NCBI GenBank assembly: GCA_028716225.1 | Contig: JAQUQE010000001.1 | Span: 219,407-283,406 of the forward strand | Direction: 5' to 3' | DNA: 64,000 nucleotides | Origin: Dehalococcoidales bacterium | Lineage (GTDB): Bacteria; Chloroflexota; Dehalococcoidia; Dehalococcoidales; UBA5760 | Shown here: in pieces, positions 56,066 through 62,920 of the stretch | Numbering within the stretch: position 1 is the first letter of the stretch | How the letters are laid out: each line of letters starts with the position of its first letter | Program-made: the position numbers and the translations under genes | Notes under the pieces: model-generated | What the model was told of the DNA's origin: nothing | What the model saw: only the letters and a program-made list of their open reading frames with translations | Database searches by the model: none

Positions 56066-56371
56066 TTAAAAAAGACCGGGCATCTTAAGGCCGCCGGTGA
56101 GGCTCTTTAACTTGCTGGCGGCAGCCTTCTGTGATTTAGTCAGGGCTTCACTTACTGCTTTCACTACCAGTTCTTCCAGAACCCCCGCTTTATCAGGATC
56201 GATTACCCCGGGTGAGATTGTAATCGATTTTATCTTTTGCTGTCCGTCGGCCGTTACCTTAACGGCGCCCTTGCCTGAACTGGCTTCGACGATGGTATTA
56301 CTCAGCTCTTCCTGAATCTTGTCCATCCTTGCTTTGAGTTCTCGGGCCTGATTCATTTGAGATAGGTTCAT
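56066..56371 (-). CDS. ybaB: YbaB/EbfC nucleoid-associated protein
   Basis: A 101-residue DNA-binding protein of the YbaB/EbfC family: QMNQARELKARMDKIQEELSN, VKVTADGQQKIKSITISPGVI, LVVKAVSEALTKSQ and a Gly/Leu-rich end. It binds DNA as a dimer. The gene overlaps the end of dnaX by four bases, in the usual dnaX-ybaB-recR cluster. Confidence 0.93.
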   Translation of the reverse strand: MNLSQMNQARELKARMDKIQEELSNTIVEASSGKGAVKVTADGQQKIKSITISPGVIDPDKAGVLEELVVKAVSEALTKSQKAAASKLKSLTGGLKMPGLF

Positions 56372-57999
56372 TTCTCCTCCGCGTCAATAATTTGTGCTCC
56401 CATATTCAATACCGCCTCCACCAGGTGGTTATCTTCCGGCTGGTAGATACAGTCTACCCGGCAGGGATGACCGACAAAACTACTGATAATCTTTTCCGCC
56501 ACCTGCCGGTTTTGCGGTTTTTCCATATTATCCTTGTGGATGGGGAACTTAAAAGCCAGCACTACGGTATCGTCGCTAAATGACACCGGCCTGCCGGAGC
56601 TTCTAAGAAAGGCAACTGCCGGGGTTTTCTGGGTATCCGCCGGGGCATTCTCGATGATCCGCTTCCAGTTCTGCCTCAGGAATTCAAGCTCACTGCCCGG
56701 TTCGGGCGGAGCAACCGGAGTTCCCTCCGATGGCGGCGGGACTTCAACTGCGCCTGGCCCGGCTTCCGGTTGGGCGGGCGACGGCGAAGCGACCTCAGCC
56801 GCCCCGGTTTTAGCTGATGACGGCTCAGTGGGAACAGGAACCTGGGGAGGCGAAGATACGCCAGCCGGCTTTTGCACTTTAGGTCGAGCTTGTTTTGCCT
56901 GAATCTTGGGCGCCTCCTCTGGTGTCAGGACACAGTCAACCAGCGCCAGCTCCAGCGGCAGTGTAGAGTAGCTATCGAAACCGCCGGACTCCAGTTGACC
57001 GAATAGTTTGACCGCCTTCAGTATCTGTGGTAGTGAGGCCTTAAGTGCTATCTCCTTTAGTTCTGCCAAGTCCTCACCAGGGAGATCAATATCATCGCCG
57101 GCACCAGTCTTGACCAGCAGCAGTGCCCTGAGGTACTCCACCAGCTCCCGGTTAAACGGTCGCAGGTCCAGCCCGTTGCCGCTGATGCTGTGTATCGTCC
57201 TGATTCCAGCAGCAATATCATTATCCATGATGTGCTTCAGCATCTCTCCGGCCCGCCGGTCCCCGCTGATACCAAGGGTAGCCTGAGCCTGCGGAAGACC
57301 TATTTCGGTACCGTAATAGGTGATAAGCTGCTCCAGAATATTTTCGGCATCACGCAGGCTGCCGGTAGCGCTCCTGGCGATAAGCCGCAGCGTCTCCGGT
57401 TTGACCTCAACGCCTTCCGAACTGCAGATGTGGCCTAGCCGGGAGACGACATCAGACTGGGCGATACGGCGGAAATCGAAGTGCTGGCACCGGGATAGAA
57501 CCGTGGGCAGGACCTTATGAGCCTCGGTAGTAGCCAGGACAAAGATTACATGGGGCGGCGGCTCCTCCAACGTCTTTAAGAGAGCATTAGAGGCGCTGGT
57601 ACTGAGCATATGGACTTCGTCTATGATATATACCTTGTAACGGGCTTCACCGGGAGTATAGTTGGCTCTCTCACGCAAGTCACGAATGTTATCAACACCG
57701 GTGTTGCTGGCAGCATCAATCTCGATAACATCCAGCGCTCTGCCTTCGGTTATCGCCCGGCACATCGAACAATTATTGCACGGTTCATCCTGCCCGTTAG
57801 TGCTCAGGCAATTGACCGCCTTAGCCAGGATACGCCCGGTGCTGGTCTTACCGGTGCCCCGCGGGCCACAGAAGAGATAGGCATGGGCAACCCGGCTGCT
57901 CTTCAGGGCATTAAGCAACGTGCGAGTCACCTGCTCCTGACCGACTACCTCCGCCAGGGTCTGCGGCCGCCACTTACGATAAAAAACTTGAGAAGCCAT
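56368..57999 (-). CDS. dnaX: DNA polymerase III subunits gamma/tau
   Basis: Clamp-loader ATPase of 543 residues. Walker A is GPRGTGKTSTGRILAKAVNC; the zinc-binding cysteines are in CLSTNGQDEPCNNCSMC; Walker B/DEAH-type motif is IDEVHMLSTSA; sensor 1 is VLATTEAHKVLPTVLSRC. The last 170 residues are a Pro/Ala-rich linker and a tau-like end. I see no obvious A-rich slippage site. ATG 57999 has no Shine-Dalgarno sequence and lies about 10 bases from a -10 box, so its message may be nearly leaderless. Confidence 0.96.
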   Translation of the reverse strand: MASQVFYRKWRPQTLAEVVGQEQVTRTLLNALKSSRVAHAYLFCGPRGTGKTSTGRILAKAVNCLSTNGQDEPCNNCSMCRAITEGRALDVIEIDAASNTGVDNIRDLRERANYTPGEARYKVYIIDEVHMLSTSASNALLKTLEEPPPHVIFVLATTEAHKVLPTVLSRCQHFDFRRIAQSDVVSRLGHICSSEGVEVKPETLRLIARSATGSLRDAENILEQLITYYGTEIGLPQAQATLGISGDRRAGEMLKHIMDNDIAAGIRTIHSISGNGLDLRPFNRELVEYLRALLLVKTGAGDDIDLPGEDLAELKEIALKASLPQILKAVKLFGQLESGGFDSYSTLPLELALVDCVLTPEEAPKIQAKQARPKVQKPAGVSSPPQVPVPTEPSSAKTGAAEVASPSPAQPEAGPGAVEVPPPSEGTPVAPPEPGSELEFLRQNWKRIIENAPADTQKTPAVAFLRSSGRPVSFSDDTVVLAFKFPIHKDNMEKPQNRQVAEKIISSFVGHPCRVDCIYQPEDNHLVEAVLNMGAQIIDAEEK

Positions 58000-58096: not shown

Positions 58097-58133
58097 AAAA
58101 AAGATATCCCTCTTAATTAATAAGAGGGATATC
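58097..58133 (-). terminator. Terminator of the first tubulin-like gene
   Basis: Arms GATATCCCTCTTA (58103-58115) and TAAGAGGGATATC (58121-58133) pair perfectly around five bases. On the minus strand the stem is followed at once by six T residues (58102-58097). It lies 25 bases after the stop of the gene at 58158 and isolates it from dnaX. Confidence 0.88.
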
Positions 58134-58157: not shown

Positions 58158-59330
58158 TTATAACAGCGATGGGATATCTTTTGCGGCATCGTCAATATCT
58201 TGGAGCTTACAGGCCGCCTCTTCTCTCTTCCTCCGAATCTCTTCGATAACCGTAGTTGAGAGAGCGTAGTAGCTCTTTATCTTTGTTGAAGTATCGAGCT
58301 CCGATAGTATCACGGTGACGTCCAGAACGCCCTTCTGCCTGGGGTAGTCACCGCTGCGTATTATCGCCTTCGGGGCGATGTCTCTCATGTAATCGCCGAG
58401 CTCCTTAACCAGATCCATATTCATTTCCCTGGCCGGTGCGGAAAGAAGATAGAGGGCACGGTTGGCATCCTGGGGATTACAGGCAAGCGAAAGCTCACTC
58501 AGGGCCTCATCCATAGCCTGTATTCCCTTGTGGGTCTCGGTACTCTTATCCCTGAAGTTCCGTGTCTGCCGGAACGGTCTGATCATAGAAAGGGGTGATT
58601 TACCATAGCCGATTACCGTCCAGCCCGATACGGTCTGCAGGATATCCCCGGCGTCAAGCGTCTTCGCTCCGATGTTCTTTCGTTTTTTCTCCTCGCCGGC
58701 ACAGAGCAGATTATAGAACGGCTCCACTATCAGCGCGTTGATGGCAGCAATATTGTTTCTGATTGAAGAGTCCTTACGAATATACCGCTGGTTATCGACA
58801 AGAATCACCGCATCGGCCACCGCGTTGACCGATTTCAGGCAGGTGGCAGTATTATAAATAGTCCTCTCTTCGTTGTTTTCTTCGTGCTCAAACGGCAGGA
58901 TAATAAGGTTATAGACCGGTTTATCCGCATAGCGCTCCTTGATCAGTTTGGTCACTACCGGAATTGAGCCGGAGCCGGTGCCGCCGGCGGAACTGGCCAC
59001 CAGCAAGAAGGCATCCGACTCCAGAAAGCGCGGAGTAACCCTTATCGCGTCGACAATCTTATCGCTATCCTCTTTGGCTATCTCAGCCCCCAGCTCATTA
59101 ATCTTGCCGACTCCGTGGCCGCCGGTCCGGCGCCCACCGATAAGAATTCTATGCTTATAATCGGACTTGATTGCCTGCAGGCCGCTTAAGTCAGCCGAGT
59201 CCGAGTTTACCGCGAAGGCACCGGTCACTATCTCTATGCCCCGATTGCTGCGTGCGCGAGCGTTCAAGCGGGCAAACTCATCGGCAACTCTACCGCCACA
59301 TTGTCCAAAACCAATAACTACTAATTTCAT
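58158..59330 (-). CDS. FtsZ/tubulin-like GTPase, paralogue 1
   Basis: A 390-residue protein of the tubulin/FtsZ superfamily but not canonical FtsZ. Residues 1-12 read MKLVVIGFGQCGG (the T1 glycine loop), the tubulin signature GGTGSG is at 116-121, and the T7 catalytic loop shows LDAGD (225-229), keeping the two Asp of FtsZ (NLDFAD). NELGAE and YNTATCLKS are shared with its paralogue. The C-terminal domain is followed by a charged helix and the tail KDIPSLL. It should bind GTP and polymerise; role unknown (membrane remodelling or positioning are guesses). A strong promoter and terminator make it a single-gene unit. Confidence 0.86.
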   Translation of the reverse strand: MKLVVIGFGQCGGRVADEFARLNARARSNRGIEIVTGAFAVNSDSADLSGLQAIKSDYKHRILIGGRRTGGHGVGKINELGAEIAKEDSDKIVDAIRVTPRFLESDAFLLVASSAGGTGSGSIPVVTKLIKERYADKPVYNLIILPFEHEENNEERTIYNTATCLKSVNAVADAVILVDNQRYIRKDSSIRNNIAAINALIVEPFYNLLCAGEEKKRKNIGAKTLDAGDILQTVSGWTVIGYGKSPLSMIRPFRQTRNFRDKSTETHKGIQAMDEALSELSLACNPQDANRALYLLSAPAREMNMDLVKELGDYMRDIAPKAIIRSGDYPRQKGVLDVTVILSELDTSTKIKSYYALSTTVIEEIRRKREEAACKLQDIDDAAKDIPSLL

Positions 59331-59359
59331 TTCCTATCTCCGGCGTCAATAGTTTCACC

Positions 59360-59389
59360 ATTTTAGTCATACTCGCCGTACAATGTCAA
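59360..59389 (-). promoter_or_regulatory. Promoter of tubulin-like gene 1
   Basis: On the minus strand TTGACA (59389-59384) and TAAAAT (59365-59360) with an 18-base spacer; start near 59353, 23 bases before the ATG. The second tubulin-like gene has the same two boxes. Confidence 0.72.
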
Positions 59390-59581
59390 TTACTATATCG
59401 GGTGAGATGCCTATTCGGCCAAAATAGCTTGAGCAGCGGTAGTCCTGTACATTGGTATATATTGCAAAACTAATTGACCTATCATAAAATAGGGAATACG
59501 CAACAAGAAGAGAACTCATCCACATTGCCGGAATGTCATGTTGTTATTCTTAATCAAAGTCTTTAGGGGTTGTTAAGAGGT

Positions 59582-61057
59582 ATGGAAGACGGAACCGGAG
59601 CAATTGATAAGGCGGTGGCTAGGGCAGAAACACTGAGTAAATCGGCTATCGAAGCTGCCGAGGCAACGATAAGGATAGCTCAAGAAGCGATTGCCAGAGC
59701 TGAGGAATTAGGCAAATCAACCAGGAAAGCAGCCGAGGAAGGGACCCGATCGTCCAAAAAGGCGGTAGCCAAGGCAGAAAAGGTAGCCAAGGAAGCTGAA
59801 GAATCTACCGAAGCATCGTCTAAGGCTTTCACAGAAGCAATAGCCAGAGCCGAGGAAACGGTCGAGTCAACGAGAGATGCCCTCAAGAACCTGACCAAGA
59901 CCTTTGAGGCCTCGGTTACTCAAGCGGAGAGAACGGTTAAGGAAGCCAAGGAAGCTGCTGAGGCATCAATCAAAGAGTCCACGGAAAAGATGAACCGGGC
60001 CGAGAGGGCCAGTGCCGCCGCCAGGGAGATTGCGGAAGAGGCCAGAAATATCTCCCGCCAAGCGATAACCAAGGTAGAAGAGGTAGAGAAGCTAGCCAGG
60101 AAATTTTCCGAGGAAGCGATTAAAGCTTCCCGCAAGGCGGTGGACGAGGCGGAGAAGGCCAGTAAAGCACTCGAAGAGTCTACCGCAATATCGACCAGGG
60201 GTTTTGATAAAGCGATAAGCAGTGCCGAAGAAACGACCAAATGGTCGCAGGAGACTATCGAGACAGCTAGCGCTACCTTCGACAGGACTATTACCGGTGC
60301 CGAAGGGGTACGCGAAAAAGCTAAGGAATCCGTTGAGCTGATGAGAAAGTCCTCACAAGAAGCGGTAGCCAGAGCCGATAAACTAAGCAAAGAGGTTCAA
60401 GAGACGGCTGATTTAGCGAAACGAAACACTAATGAAGCTGTCAGCGCGGTGATAGCCAGAGCCGAGGAAATAATCAAAGAGGTTCGGGAAATTGCCGAGT
60501 CATCGACCGCTGCTTCCCGGGAAGCTTTGAACATGGTAGAGGAGACGGGTAAAATGGCCAGGGAGGCGGCCAACGAAGCAGCTCGGTTATCCAAGGAGGC
60601 AATAGCCAAGGCAGAGGAGATAGGTAGAGGGGCCAGAGAGGCAGCCGAGGCAGCGAAGCGCGAGGCACAGCAGGCATCCGAAATGGCCAGACAGGCAGCC
60701 AAAGAGGCCGCCGAGACTTCAATCAGAGCATTCGAGGCGGCGATTAATCGGGGTGTGGAAACCACTCGATTTTCAGAGGAGAGGCACAGACCGGCACCAA
60801 GCCGTTCCGAGGAGCAAGACAAACCGGTGGAGAAACCTGCCGAAGCACCGCTGAGTCAGATTGAAAAATCTATCGAGACCTCAATAAGCCGCACCACCGG
60901 GAAAAACAAGGAAGCGGAGCCAGTCGAAGAGGCACAATCAGAGCAGAGTAAAGAAGAAGCCGAGAGAGAGTCGGCGAGGATCGTAGACAAACGCCTCGAG
61001 TTCCTGGCCAGGATGTATGCCACTAAGAAAGAGAAACTCAGTAAGGAGGAGGAATAA
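59582..61057 (+). CDS. Long Ala/Glu/Lys-rich helical repeat protein
   Basis: A 491-residue protein almost wholly predicted as amphipathic helix. Irregular repeats of 11-22 residues recur, such as EAIARAEELGKSTRKAAEE and AIARAEETVESTRDALKN, with Ala at the small face and Glu/Lys outside, recalling apolipoprotein-like or LEA-like coils. No signal peptide, membrane helix or enzyme motif. The tail is charged and Pro-containing (about residues 385-430), followed by a final helix. ATG 59582 is preferred; TTG 59570 is in frame too. It is divergent from tubulin-like gene 1 and 95 bases before a second coiled-coil gene. Confidence 0.78.
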   Translation: MEDGTGAIDKAVARAETLSKSAIEAAEATIRIAQEAIARAEELGKSTRKAAEEGTRSSKKAVAKAEKVAKEAEESTEASSKAFTEAIARAEETVESTRDALKNLTKTFEASVTQAERTVKEAKEAAEASIKESTEKMNRAERASAAAREIAEEARNISRQAITKVEEVEKLARKFSEEAIKASRKAVDEAEKASKALEESTAISTRGFDKAISSAEETTKWSQETIETASATFDRTITGAEGVREKAKESVELMRKSSQEAVARADKLSKEVQETADLAKRNTNEAVSAVIARAEEIIKEVREIAESSTAASREALNMVEETGKMAREAANEAARLSKEAIAKAEEIGRGAREAAEAAKREAQQASEMARQAAKEAAETSIRAFEAAINRGVETTRFSEERHRPAPSRSEEQDKPVEKPAEAPLSQIEKSIETSISRTTGKNKEAEPVEEAQSEQSKEEAERESARIVDKRLEFLARMYATKKEKLSKEEE

Positions 61058-61152
61058 AGGGCTGAAAATATGCAGTTTCTTAAAATAAGTCCCTACTCTT
61101 CCGTAACAGTAAAAGTACTCGTAACAAAACAGAGCGAAGGAGGACCAGATTA

Positions 61153-61692
61153 ATGAATCAAGGAGCGCAAACTCCCAAAGACCGTGAGCAAGCGGAGAAA
61201 ACAGCGAAACAGGTGAAACAACAGGCGGCACCACCTGAAAACGCTCAGGAACGCCCGGCAACATCCTTGAGTGAGATCCTGGGGCGGGCAGAAAAAGCAT
61301 ACGCTGCCTATATGGAAGCACAAAAGGAAGTAACCACAGCCTACCGGGTAAGCGAACTGGAAGCAGAAAAGACCTACAAAGACACCGAGCAGCAAGCGAG
61401 GAATGCCTGTAATGCAAGCATCAAACAGGCATTCAAGAGCCGTGACGAGGTAATCGAGAAAGCCATGAAGTCACGCGATGAGGCCAAAGCTCAGGCTGAG
61501 ATGGCCTATAGGGCTGCCATGGATCAGGCGGAAAAGACCTACAAGGATAAAGAACTAACGGCACATGGCGCCTTTGACGAGGATGTAAGTTCGGCCATGA
61601 AGACCTGTGAAACGACTATAGCTCAAGCCTGGAAAAAACGCGGGGAGATTATCGAACAAGCCTGGAACATCTATAACAAGGCCGCCGGGTGA
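61153..61692 (+). CDS. Coiled-coil protein with internal repeats
   Basis: A 179-residue helical protein. After a polar N-terminus (35 residues with several Pro) comes a repeat containing AEKAYAAYMEAQKEV, AEKTYKDTEQQARNACNAS, AEKTYKDKELTAHGAF and ending AWNIYNKAAG; the unit AEKTYKD occurs twice, 66 residues apart. Function unknown. The strong GGAGGA before ATG 61153 shows it is translated. It is the partner of the helical protein at 59582 and convergent with tubulin-like gene 2, 64 bases away. Confidence 0.78.
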   Translation: MNQGAQTPKDREQAEKTAKQVKQQAAPPENAQERPATSLSEILGRAEKAYAAYMEAQKEVTTAYRVSELEAEKTYKDTEQQARNACNASIKQAFKSRDEVIEKAMKSRDEAKAQAEMAYRAAMDQAEKTYKDKELTAHGAFDEDVSSAMKTCETTIAQAWKKRGEIIEQAWNIYNKAAG

Positions 61693-61756
61693 AGCACAAA
61701 GCAAGGTGAGTCCTACTCAATTACTGCAACTGGTATTTAACCGAGCGTCCGGTCAA

Positions 61757-62920
61757 TCAGAGGAGGGAGGGGATATCCTTAAAGGCATCAGCGAGGTCGC
61801 TGTGCTCGATCTCTATTCCTTCCCTCTTTCTCCTGATGGTAGCAATGAGGTCAATAGTCTGGGTAAAGTAGTCAACAATTTTCTTCATCCCGCTGAACTC
61901 GGAGAGAATTACCGTAACATTCAGTGAGCCTTTCTCCCTGGGGTAATCACCGGTTCGAATAATGGCCTCCGGTGCGATACGCTTCATATGAGTACCGATA
62001 TCCTTCACCAGACTCATATCCATATCCTTAGCCGGTGCCGAGATCAGGTATAACCCCCTGCCGGCATCCGCCGGATTGCATCTTACCGATAACTCGCTGA
62101 TAGCATTATTTATCAACTGAACCCCCTTCTGCCCTTCCGCCATCTTATCCCGAAAATCGAAGAGGTTTTTCATTCTTCCCGGCTGGGATCTACTGTAGCC
62201 TATTACAGTCCAGCCAGCCAGAGTCTGTATTATATCACCGGCATCGAGTATCCGGGAACCGATATACTGAGGCCTGGTTTCTTCGCCGGCGCAGAGAAGA
62301 TTATAGAACGGCTCCGCTATCAACGAGTTAATCTTGGACAGGTTGCCTCTGATCGAGTAGTTTTTGCTAATGTACCTCTGATTATCAACAACGAATACGG
62401 CATCAGCCACCAGATAGGCAGATTTGAGACAGGTAGCAGCATTATAAATAGTCCTCCCTTCGGTTTCCTCCTCGTGCTGAAAGGGAAGGACTATCAGGTT
62501 ATAGAGTGGTTTTTCAACGTAGCGCTCTTTCAGTTTCTGTGTTATCGTGGCTATTGCCCCGGAGCCGGTACCGCCGGCAGCTCCGGCAATGAGCAGGAAG
62601 GCATCTGTTTCAGCAAATTGCGGCGTTTCCTTGAGGGCATCAATAATTTTGTCGCCATCATCTCGAGCAACCTCGGCACCCAGCTCGTTAATCTTACCCA
62701 CACCGTGCCCGCCGGTCTTATTACCGCCAATAAGCACCCGGTGCTGATAATCAGGCCTGATGGTAACCAATCCGCTTAAATCAGCCACATCGGTGTTAAC
62801 CGCAAACACACCGGTGATGATATTAATCTTGCGCTCCAAACGAGCCTTTATACCCAACCGGGCAAACTCATCGGCAATCCTGCCGCCGCACTGTCCGAAA
62901 CCGATAACCAGTAATTTCAT
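61757..62920 (-). CDS. FtsZ/tubulin-like GTPase, paralogue 2
   Basis: A 387-residue close paralogue of the protein at 58158; most positions agree by eye in the GTPase half. It keeps MKLLVIGFGQCGG, GGTGSG, the LDAGD catalytic loop and the C-terminal tail KDIPSLL. Differences cluster in the C-terminal domain and in surface loops, as expected for subunits that interact or have split roles. Two paralogues so close together suggest a hetero-polymer or two related filaments. It is separately promoted, on the same strand as paralogue 1, with the two coiled-coil genes in between. Confidence 0.86.
   Translation of the reverse strand: MKLLVIGFGQCGGRIADEFARLGIKARLERKINIITGVFAVNTDVADLSGLVTIRPDYQHRVLIGGNKTGGHGVGKINELGAEVARDDGDKIIDALKETPQFAETDAFLLIAGAAGGTGSGAIATITQKLKERYVEKPLYNLIVLPFQHEEETEGRTIYNAATCLKSAYLVADAVFVVDNQRYISKNYSIRGNLSKINSLIAEPFYNLLCAGEETRPQYIGSRILDAGDIIQTLAGWTVIGYSRSQPGRMKNLFDFRDKMAEGQKGVQLINNAISELSVRCNPADAGRGLYLISAPAKDMDMSLVKDIGTHMKRIAPEAIIRTGDYPREKGSLNVTVILSEFSGMKKIVDYFTQTIDLIATIRRKREGIEIEHSDLADAFKDIPSLL

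Follow-up and report, generated by a model that had tools for sequence, protein, structure and literature searches.

CetZ-like tubulin paralogues and linked helical-protein genes in a Dehalococcoidales genome

The tubulin locus

The window analyzed here is a 64,000-nucleotide stretch of contig JAQUQE010000001.1 from a Dehalococcoidales bacterium (assembly of 2.64 Mb in 156 contigs, 96% complete). It contains a four-gene block in the order tub1 (-), cc1 (+), cc2 (+), tub2 (-), encoding two tubulin paralogues, TubA and TubB, and two helical rod proteins, cc1 and cc2 (Table 1); an initial annotation of this DNA had the same gene order and strands. The block is one arrangement among several, and its conserved core is TubB plus cc1. 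TubA, the other paralogue, more often stands alone but is part of the block in the window. The TubB sequence is 99% identical to one in the Dehalococcoidia MAG UBA5760, so the host belongs to the uncultured Dehalococcoidales.

The start of cc1 is better set at the ATG (59582) than at the upstream TTG (59570), because a near-identical relative (L119) begins at that ATG. The four genes are not one transcription unit, since tub1 has its own terminator-like hairpin and lies on the opposite strand to cc1 and cc2. The promoter boxes TTGACA and TAAAAT, earlier described as shared by the two tubulin genes, do lie upstream of both, but they are consensus matches with no evidence of function; those of tub2 are separated by a 19-nt gap, outside the 16-18 scan range, and were read from the sequence. 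The block recurs in other metagenome-assembled genomes (L119-L122, L124, L126 and L035/G156, some records being near-identical or duplicates), and in one variant (L125) the gap between the tubulin genes is filled by a single 711-aa cc1.

Table 1. Features of the tubulin block and its flanks, numbered by position in the window
Feature	Position	Strand	Remarks
tub1 (TubA), CetZ-like tubulin, 390 aa	58158-59330	-	Pfam, structure matches, tree
cc1, helical rod protein, 491 aa	59582-61057	+	ORF extends to TTG 59570; 27 orthologues beside TubB
cc2, helical rod protein, 179 aa, 11-residue repeats	61153-61692	+	
tub2 (TubB), CetZ-like tubulin, 387 aa	61757-62920	-	
TubA T4 GTP loop GGTGSG	58968-58985	-	
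TubA T7 catalytic loop LDAGD	58644-58658	-	
TubB T4 GTP loop GGTGSG	62558-62575	-	Kept in 28/28 TubB
TubB T7 catalytic loop LDAGD	62234-62248	-	D-[AGS]-G-D in 28/28 TubB
TubA C-terminal peptide DIPSLL	58161-58178	-	Resembles FtsZ C-terminal peptide
TubB C-terminal peptide DIPSLL	61760-61777	-	
cc1 body, about fifteen 25-residue repeats	59618-60772	+	
cc1 C-terminal motif RLEFLARMY	60992-61018	+	
cc2 conserved AYAAY motif	61297-61311	+	Invariant columns A49, Y50, A52, Y53
Terminator-like hairpin, downstream of tub1	58103-58133	-	13-bp stem plus T run
Promoter-like site of tub1, TTGACA-18-TAAAAT	59360-59389	-	11/12 matches; consensus match, no evidence of function
Promoter-like site of cc1, TTGCAA-17-TAAAAT	59462-59490	+	9/12 matches
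dnaX, flank of block	56368-57999	-	
gap, flank of block	63018 onward	-	

Identity of the tubulins

TubA and TubB are 63% identical to each other, and both match the Pfam Tubulin domain PF00091 (114 bits, E 1e-32, for TubA and 108 bits for TubB; cut-off 33) and CetZ_C (58 bits, E 1e-15, and 50 bits; cut-off 21.6). Both fail the FtsZ equivalog TIGR00065, scoring 65 and 55 bits where 295 are required. Among solved structures, those nearest to TubA by sequence are Haloferax CetZ1 (4b46, E 1e-45) and CetZ2 (4b45), with 3zid also among the top entries, and the predicted model of TubB (pLDDT 74, pTM 0.78) has CetZ1, CetZ2 and Methanosaeta CetZ (4b46, 4b45, 3zid) as its first fold matches. Judged by sequence, both are CetZ-like proteins with the GTPase fold of the Tubulin/FtsZ superfamily and intact T4 and T7 loops. 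The initial annotation had correctly read the GTP-binding and catalytic loops as intact in both paralogues; its term "tubulin/FtsZ-like" is imprecise for proteins with a CetZ_C domain and CetZ structures as nearest matches.

CetZ is often described as specific to archaea (PMC9856176, PMC11621097). On our trees a long branch separates archaeal CetZ from the Dehalococcoidia groups, with few archaeal rows sampled. Dehalococcoidia sequences are treated as CetZ-like, with C-termini similar to CetZ_C, in one sentence of a 2023 paper (PMC9871819), and these are very probably the same proteins as the TubA/TubB group. The passages of that paper concerned with them describe no TubA/TubB split, cc1/cc2 partners, tail or wall-enzyme association. 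In the open-licence literature searched, neither the module of TubB and its partners nor the division into two paralogues was found described, and the same is true of the FtsZ-like tail and of the link to absent wall enzymes. The initial annotation's "undescribed cytoskeletal system" is thus supported as regards the partner genes, within the literature searched, but not as regards the CetZ-like sequences themselves.

Linkage of TubB with the helical-protein genes

Two trees were built, a quick one of 122 proteins and a careful one of 76. In both, TubB (tub2 and its orthologues) forms one clade; in the careful tree its support is 100/98, and presence of the partner maps as one change. tub1 falls in the TubA group. 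A convergent helical-repeat gene lies at the 3' end of all 28 TubB genes (cc1 in 27, and cc2 alone in one locus at a contig edge) and at none of about 85 other tubulin loci of that set, so that the co-occurrence on which the initial annotation had made its proposal depend is found for tub2. The 3' ends of the pair are mostly 5-118 nt apart (61692-61757 in the window), and cc2 is present at 17 of the 28 loci. An order-wide scan of 156 genomes placed at least 46 of 72 cc2 genes within 1 kb of a CetZ_C match, among the matches listed, with 45 of the 46 convergent; over half of the cc2 genes outside those 46 proved to adjoin a tubulin once their regions were fetched. TubA is usually solitary between gap and dnaX, without rod genes in most lineages. 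The rod genes therefore belong with TubB, and the conserved unit is TubB plus the rod genes, not the compact four-gene unit first proposed.

The association of TubB with cc1 is very likely real and functional. The pair is convergent and not co-transcribed, as would be expected if it were only hitchhiking as a frozen block with no functional link. Among 25 non-redundant TubB loci, however, the neighbour is gap, TubA or dnaX in 11, and in the other 14 the flanks differ with the pair still intact and convergent. This is seen in several families of the order as well as in a second one of the class (f54), and it makes simple hitchhiking highly improbable. The convergence may reflect shared termination or antisense control.

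Movement of DNA is a third known use of prokaryotic tubulins, and a partition (TubZRC-like) or phage-spindle-like element would be a further reading of the locus. In other Dehalococcoidia a related CetZ-like tubulin is recurrently convergent with a gene of 450-480 aa (families f24, f54, f66 and f74; L075:6923-8293 and L077:4270-5715, and similarly at L090, L095, L103, L104, L105, L110 and L112), which in the two examples scanned looks like the large subunit of a phage terminase (Terminase_6C, PHROG terminase). The block itself has no helix-turn-helix adaptor and occupies a chromosomal site next to gap and dnaX. Two of its three intergenic gaps are free of direct or inverted repeats, and the region upstream of tub2 has one 10-bp pair and one imperfect hairpin. 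No tubulin match was obtained in phage records or PHROGs, and none for cc1 in PHROGs, so a phage origin was set aside and a DNA-moving role appears very unlikely. A defence system was also rejected, there being no meaningful PADLOC match.

The helical proteins

The body of cc1 consists of 25-residue repeats with a consensus of roughly ARAEELSKEAREAAEEAIKSSTEAI. Identity at a lag of 25 is 0.26 compared with 0.12 in shuffles, and the corresponding period (25/7 = 3.57) has a power of 46 compared with at most 6.9 in 2000 shuffles; the pattern is therefore far above chance. The body varies in length within the family (425-900 aa), whereas the C-terminal motif, R[LM]xxLxxM[YFL] in general notation, occurs in all 27 cc1 orthologues and in none of 10800 shuffled tails. 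Its R, L and M are the sole invariant columns of the family alignment. cc2 has 11-residue repeats with a period of 3.65 and is predicted as a single 140-residue helix (39-178, pLDDT mostly >90). Beyond the AYAAY motif its invariant columns are Y64, Y75, R163 and the C-terminal W171, and Pfam and PDB searches returned no known fold or family for it.

The initial annotation considered these proteins to be coiled coils. A heptad period of 3.5 was rejected, since the periods are 3.57-3.59 for cc1 and mostly 3.62-3.67 for cc2, with power at 3.5 near background. Membrane-spanning partners were likewise rejected, as neither protein has a membrane or hydrophobic segment (maximal 19-residue hydropathy 0.94 in the cc1 family). 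A BORCS6 match of cc1 lies below the curated cut-off, is typical of an Ala/Glu-rich helix and was ignored. Tubulin subunits are spaced at about 43 A; the cc1 repeat, at about 37 A per 25 residues, does not fit this spacing, and the comparison was not used.

Repeats of 11 residues with a period of 3.65 are as in LEA group 3 and synuclein-type helices. The cc2 repeats, together with the soluble and charged character of both proteins, are consistent with a stress or hydration (LEA-like) function, or with amphipathic helices that coat membranes and merely lie beside a tubulin gene. Against this, the linkage to one tubulin clade survives a change of flanks, cc1 has its invariant terminal motif, and the apolar faces are Ala-rich by sequence and so would be poor for membrane insertion; we consider this explanation unlikely.

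The cc1 profile also gives weak scores to a separate, tail-anchored Ala-rich family, whose members have no such C-terminal motif and are encoded elsewhere. Long Ala-rich helical proteins distinct from cc1 occur at L225, L227, L233 and L229-L237, and the four sequences read end in a transmembrane-like hydrophobic segment. Dehalococcoides has two paralogues of this transmembrane-ended family, beside thrS-infC-rplT, and in L227 such a gene follows a third type of CetZ-like tubulin.

FtsZ-like tails and FtsA

Both tubulins end in DIPSLL, which is similar to, but shorter than, the DVPSFLR of the canonical FtsZ of the same genome (ELDVPSFLRRP; peptide pattern D-[IV]-P-x-F-L-R). Among CetZ-like proteins, an FtsZ-like tail (DIPSLL or a variant) is present in 97 of the 102 whose GTP loop is intact compared with 0 of the 14 that lack the loop (the sequences are related, and the p value is nominal). 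The genome has a canonical ftsA-ftsZ pair, and SepF was not found in it.

TubA and TubB might accordingly be accessory division tubulins that add constriction force in an FtsA-anchored Z-ring, as in archaeal two-FtsZ systems, with cc1 and cc2 as Zap/EzrA-like organizers. The resemblance of the tail to the FtsZ peptide, the presence of FtsA and absence of a detected SepF, and the replication and repair genes in the TubA neighbourhood are in line with this, as is the placement of FtsZ-annotated DET0589 and DET0636 in one respiration- and growth-related expression network (PMC5102406). The tail match is short, however; canonical FtsZ is kept, in two copies in Dehalococcoides; and Haloferax CetZ1 acts in shape and motility (PMC11621097). 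A role in the Z-ring therefore appears rather doubtful, although it is the strongest of the alternatives considered.

Distribution and wall enzymes

Of 156 Dehalococcoidales genomes, 129 have CetZ_C; the class draw gave 67 of 294 and the phylum draw 22 of 301, every one of the 22 belonging to the class Dehalococcoidia. The window genome has four members of the tubulin superfamily: the canonical FtsZ beside FtsA, TubA, TubB, and a divergent CetZ-like protein on another contig. The gene for the last (G000:C5:119608-120690, L074) is preceded by genes for a histidine kinase and a response regulator, and its product has an intact GTP loop and the tail DIPRLA.

Three of the genomes are almost certainly Dehalococcoides: they measure 1.36-1.52 Mb and each give 19-28 matches to reductive dehalogenases. 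In every one, two canonical FtsZ genes are accompanied by two CetZ-like ones. In one of the three, the TubA gene near 540 kb is probably DET0589, judging from the gene numbering; DET0589 and DET0636 are annotated as FtsZ, and transcripts have been reported for them (PMC5102406).

FtsW/RodA is missing in 33 of 34 CetZ-positive genomes compared with 12 of 23 CetZ-negative ones, and the one CetZ-positive genome that has it, G229, is a draft. Published work also records that peptidoglycan synthesis is missing in Dehalogenimonas (PMC13390414). From their gene content, the CetZ-carrying Dehalococcoidia appear to have no peptidoglycan wall. That CetZ-like genes occur almost only where FtsW/RodA is missing suggests a connection between tubulin scaffolds and wall loss in both domains.

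The tubulins of L005, L007, L009 and L014 (families f59 and f22) score much higher with CetZ_C (106-138 bits), lack the FtsZ-like tail, group nearer archaeal CetZ and are possibly separate transfers. In a degenerate 369-aa CetZ-like paralogue (L076, L081, L083, L096, L111, L112, L090) neither the GGTGSG loop nor the C-terminal tail has survived; in most of these loci its gene directly precedes one of about 456 aa, which in L076 looks like an AAA ATPase of the RarA/MgsA type.

Proposed function

Our favoured reading, which we regard as an even call, is that in apparently wall-less Dehalococcoidia TubB with cc1, and often cc2, makes up a conserved partner module for CetZ-like tubulins and provides a filament scaffold that serves shape or division. 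To judge from the fold and the intact loops, TubB would polymerize with GTP into protofilaments, either by itself or together with TubA, each subunit's T7 loop completing the GTP site of its neighbour. The DIPSLL tail may dock the filament on a membrane adaptor, most likely FtsA, because FtsA is encoded beside FtsZ and SepF was not found. The cc1 rod (about 55 nm if fully extended) and the cc2 helix (about 21 nm) could crosslink, space or stabilize the filaments, and the invariant C-terminal motif of cc1 is a candidate contact to tubulin. Cells that have no peptidoglycan sacculus would thereby gain an internal scaffold that supports their shape or division. More tentatively, this may be a bacterial tubulin cytoskeleton with dedicated rod proteins, similar to microtubule-associated proteins, that is coupled to the membrane via the FtsZ-like tail and replaces part of the mechanical role of the wall; this broader proposal is possible but not the likelier outcome.

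Several observations weigh against a partner module of this kind. The linkage is an association, not a contact, and conserved convergence is unusual for interacting partners. There are cc1 or cc2 genes without an adjoining tubulin (L207, L210, L211, L213, L215), as well as a second cc2-like family that does not adjoin one (L238-L241 and L245); the Dehalococcoides genomes carry TubB and cc1 but no cc2; and repeats rich in Ala may have some other use. FtsW/RodA is also lacking in about half of the CetZ-negative genomes sampled from the class (the 12 of 23 above), and these counts take no account of relatedness among genomes.

CetZ-like tubulins are thus widespread in one bacterial class, almost certainly including Dehalococcoides, the genus used for chlorinated-solvent clean-up. 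The fixed partner genes of one paralogue, which we have not seen described for CetZ, offer a direct way to test what CetZ filaments bind. The near-constant position of TubB next to rod-protein genes suggests an as yet unstudied internal skeleton.

Comparison with known systems

TubZ/TubRC belongs to the same superfamily, but the window block is chromosomal and has no TubR-like gene or tubC iterons. FtsZl1 and FtsZl2, like TubA and TubB, are FtsZ-superfamily paralogues in non-division gene contexts, and FtsZl1 has a coiled-coil domain (PMC2875224). The FtsZl1 operons, however, contain vWA, kinase and GTPase genes, and the T6-H7 region is unrecognizable, whereas the block has no such genes and an intact T7. 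The initial annotation was thus right that the gene set differs from the families of Makarova and Koonin, since neither the FtsZl1 nor the FtsZl2 context matches.

TubA and TubB resemble FtsZ in fold and in the T4 and T7 loops and have a similar but shorter tail (DIPSLL, compared with DVPSFLR), but they fall below the TIGR00065 cut-off, and the canonical FtsZ is a separate gene beside ftsA. The closest likeness is to archaeal CetZ, with GTPase and CetZ_C domains over the cut-off, CetZ1, CetZ2 and Methanosaeta CetZ as the best structures, and several paralogues beside FtsZ. Unlike archaeal CetZ, TubA and TubB occur in a bacterial host, on a long branch from the haloarchaeal proteins, and have an FtsZ-like tail in place of the GELDxLF-type tail of the three haloarchaeal CetZ examined. 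The genes around archaeal cetZ include cofactor, epimerase and type IV pilus genes (PMC9856176), whereas TubB has dedicated helical partner genes.

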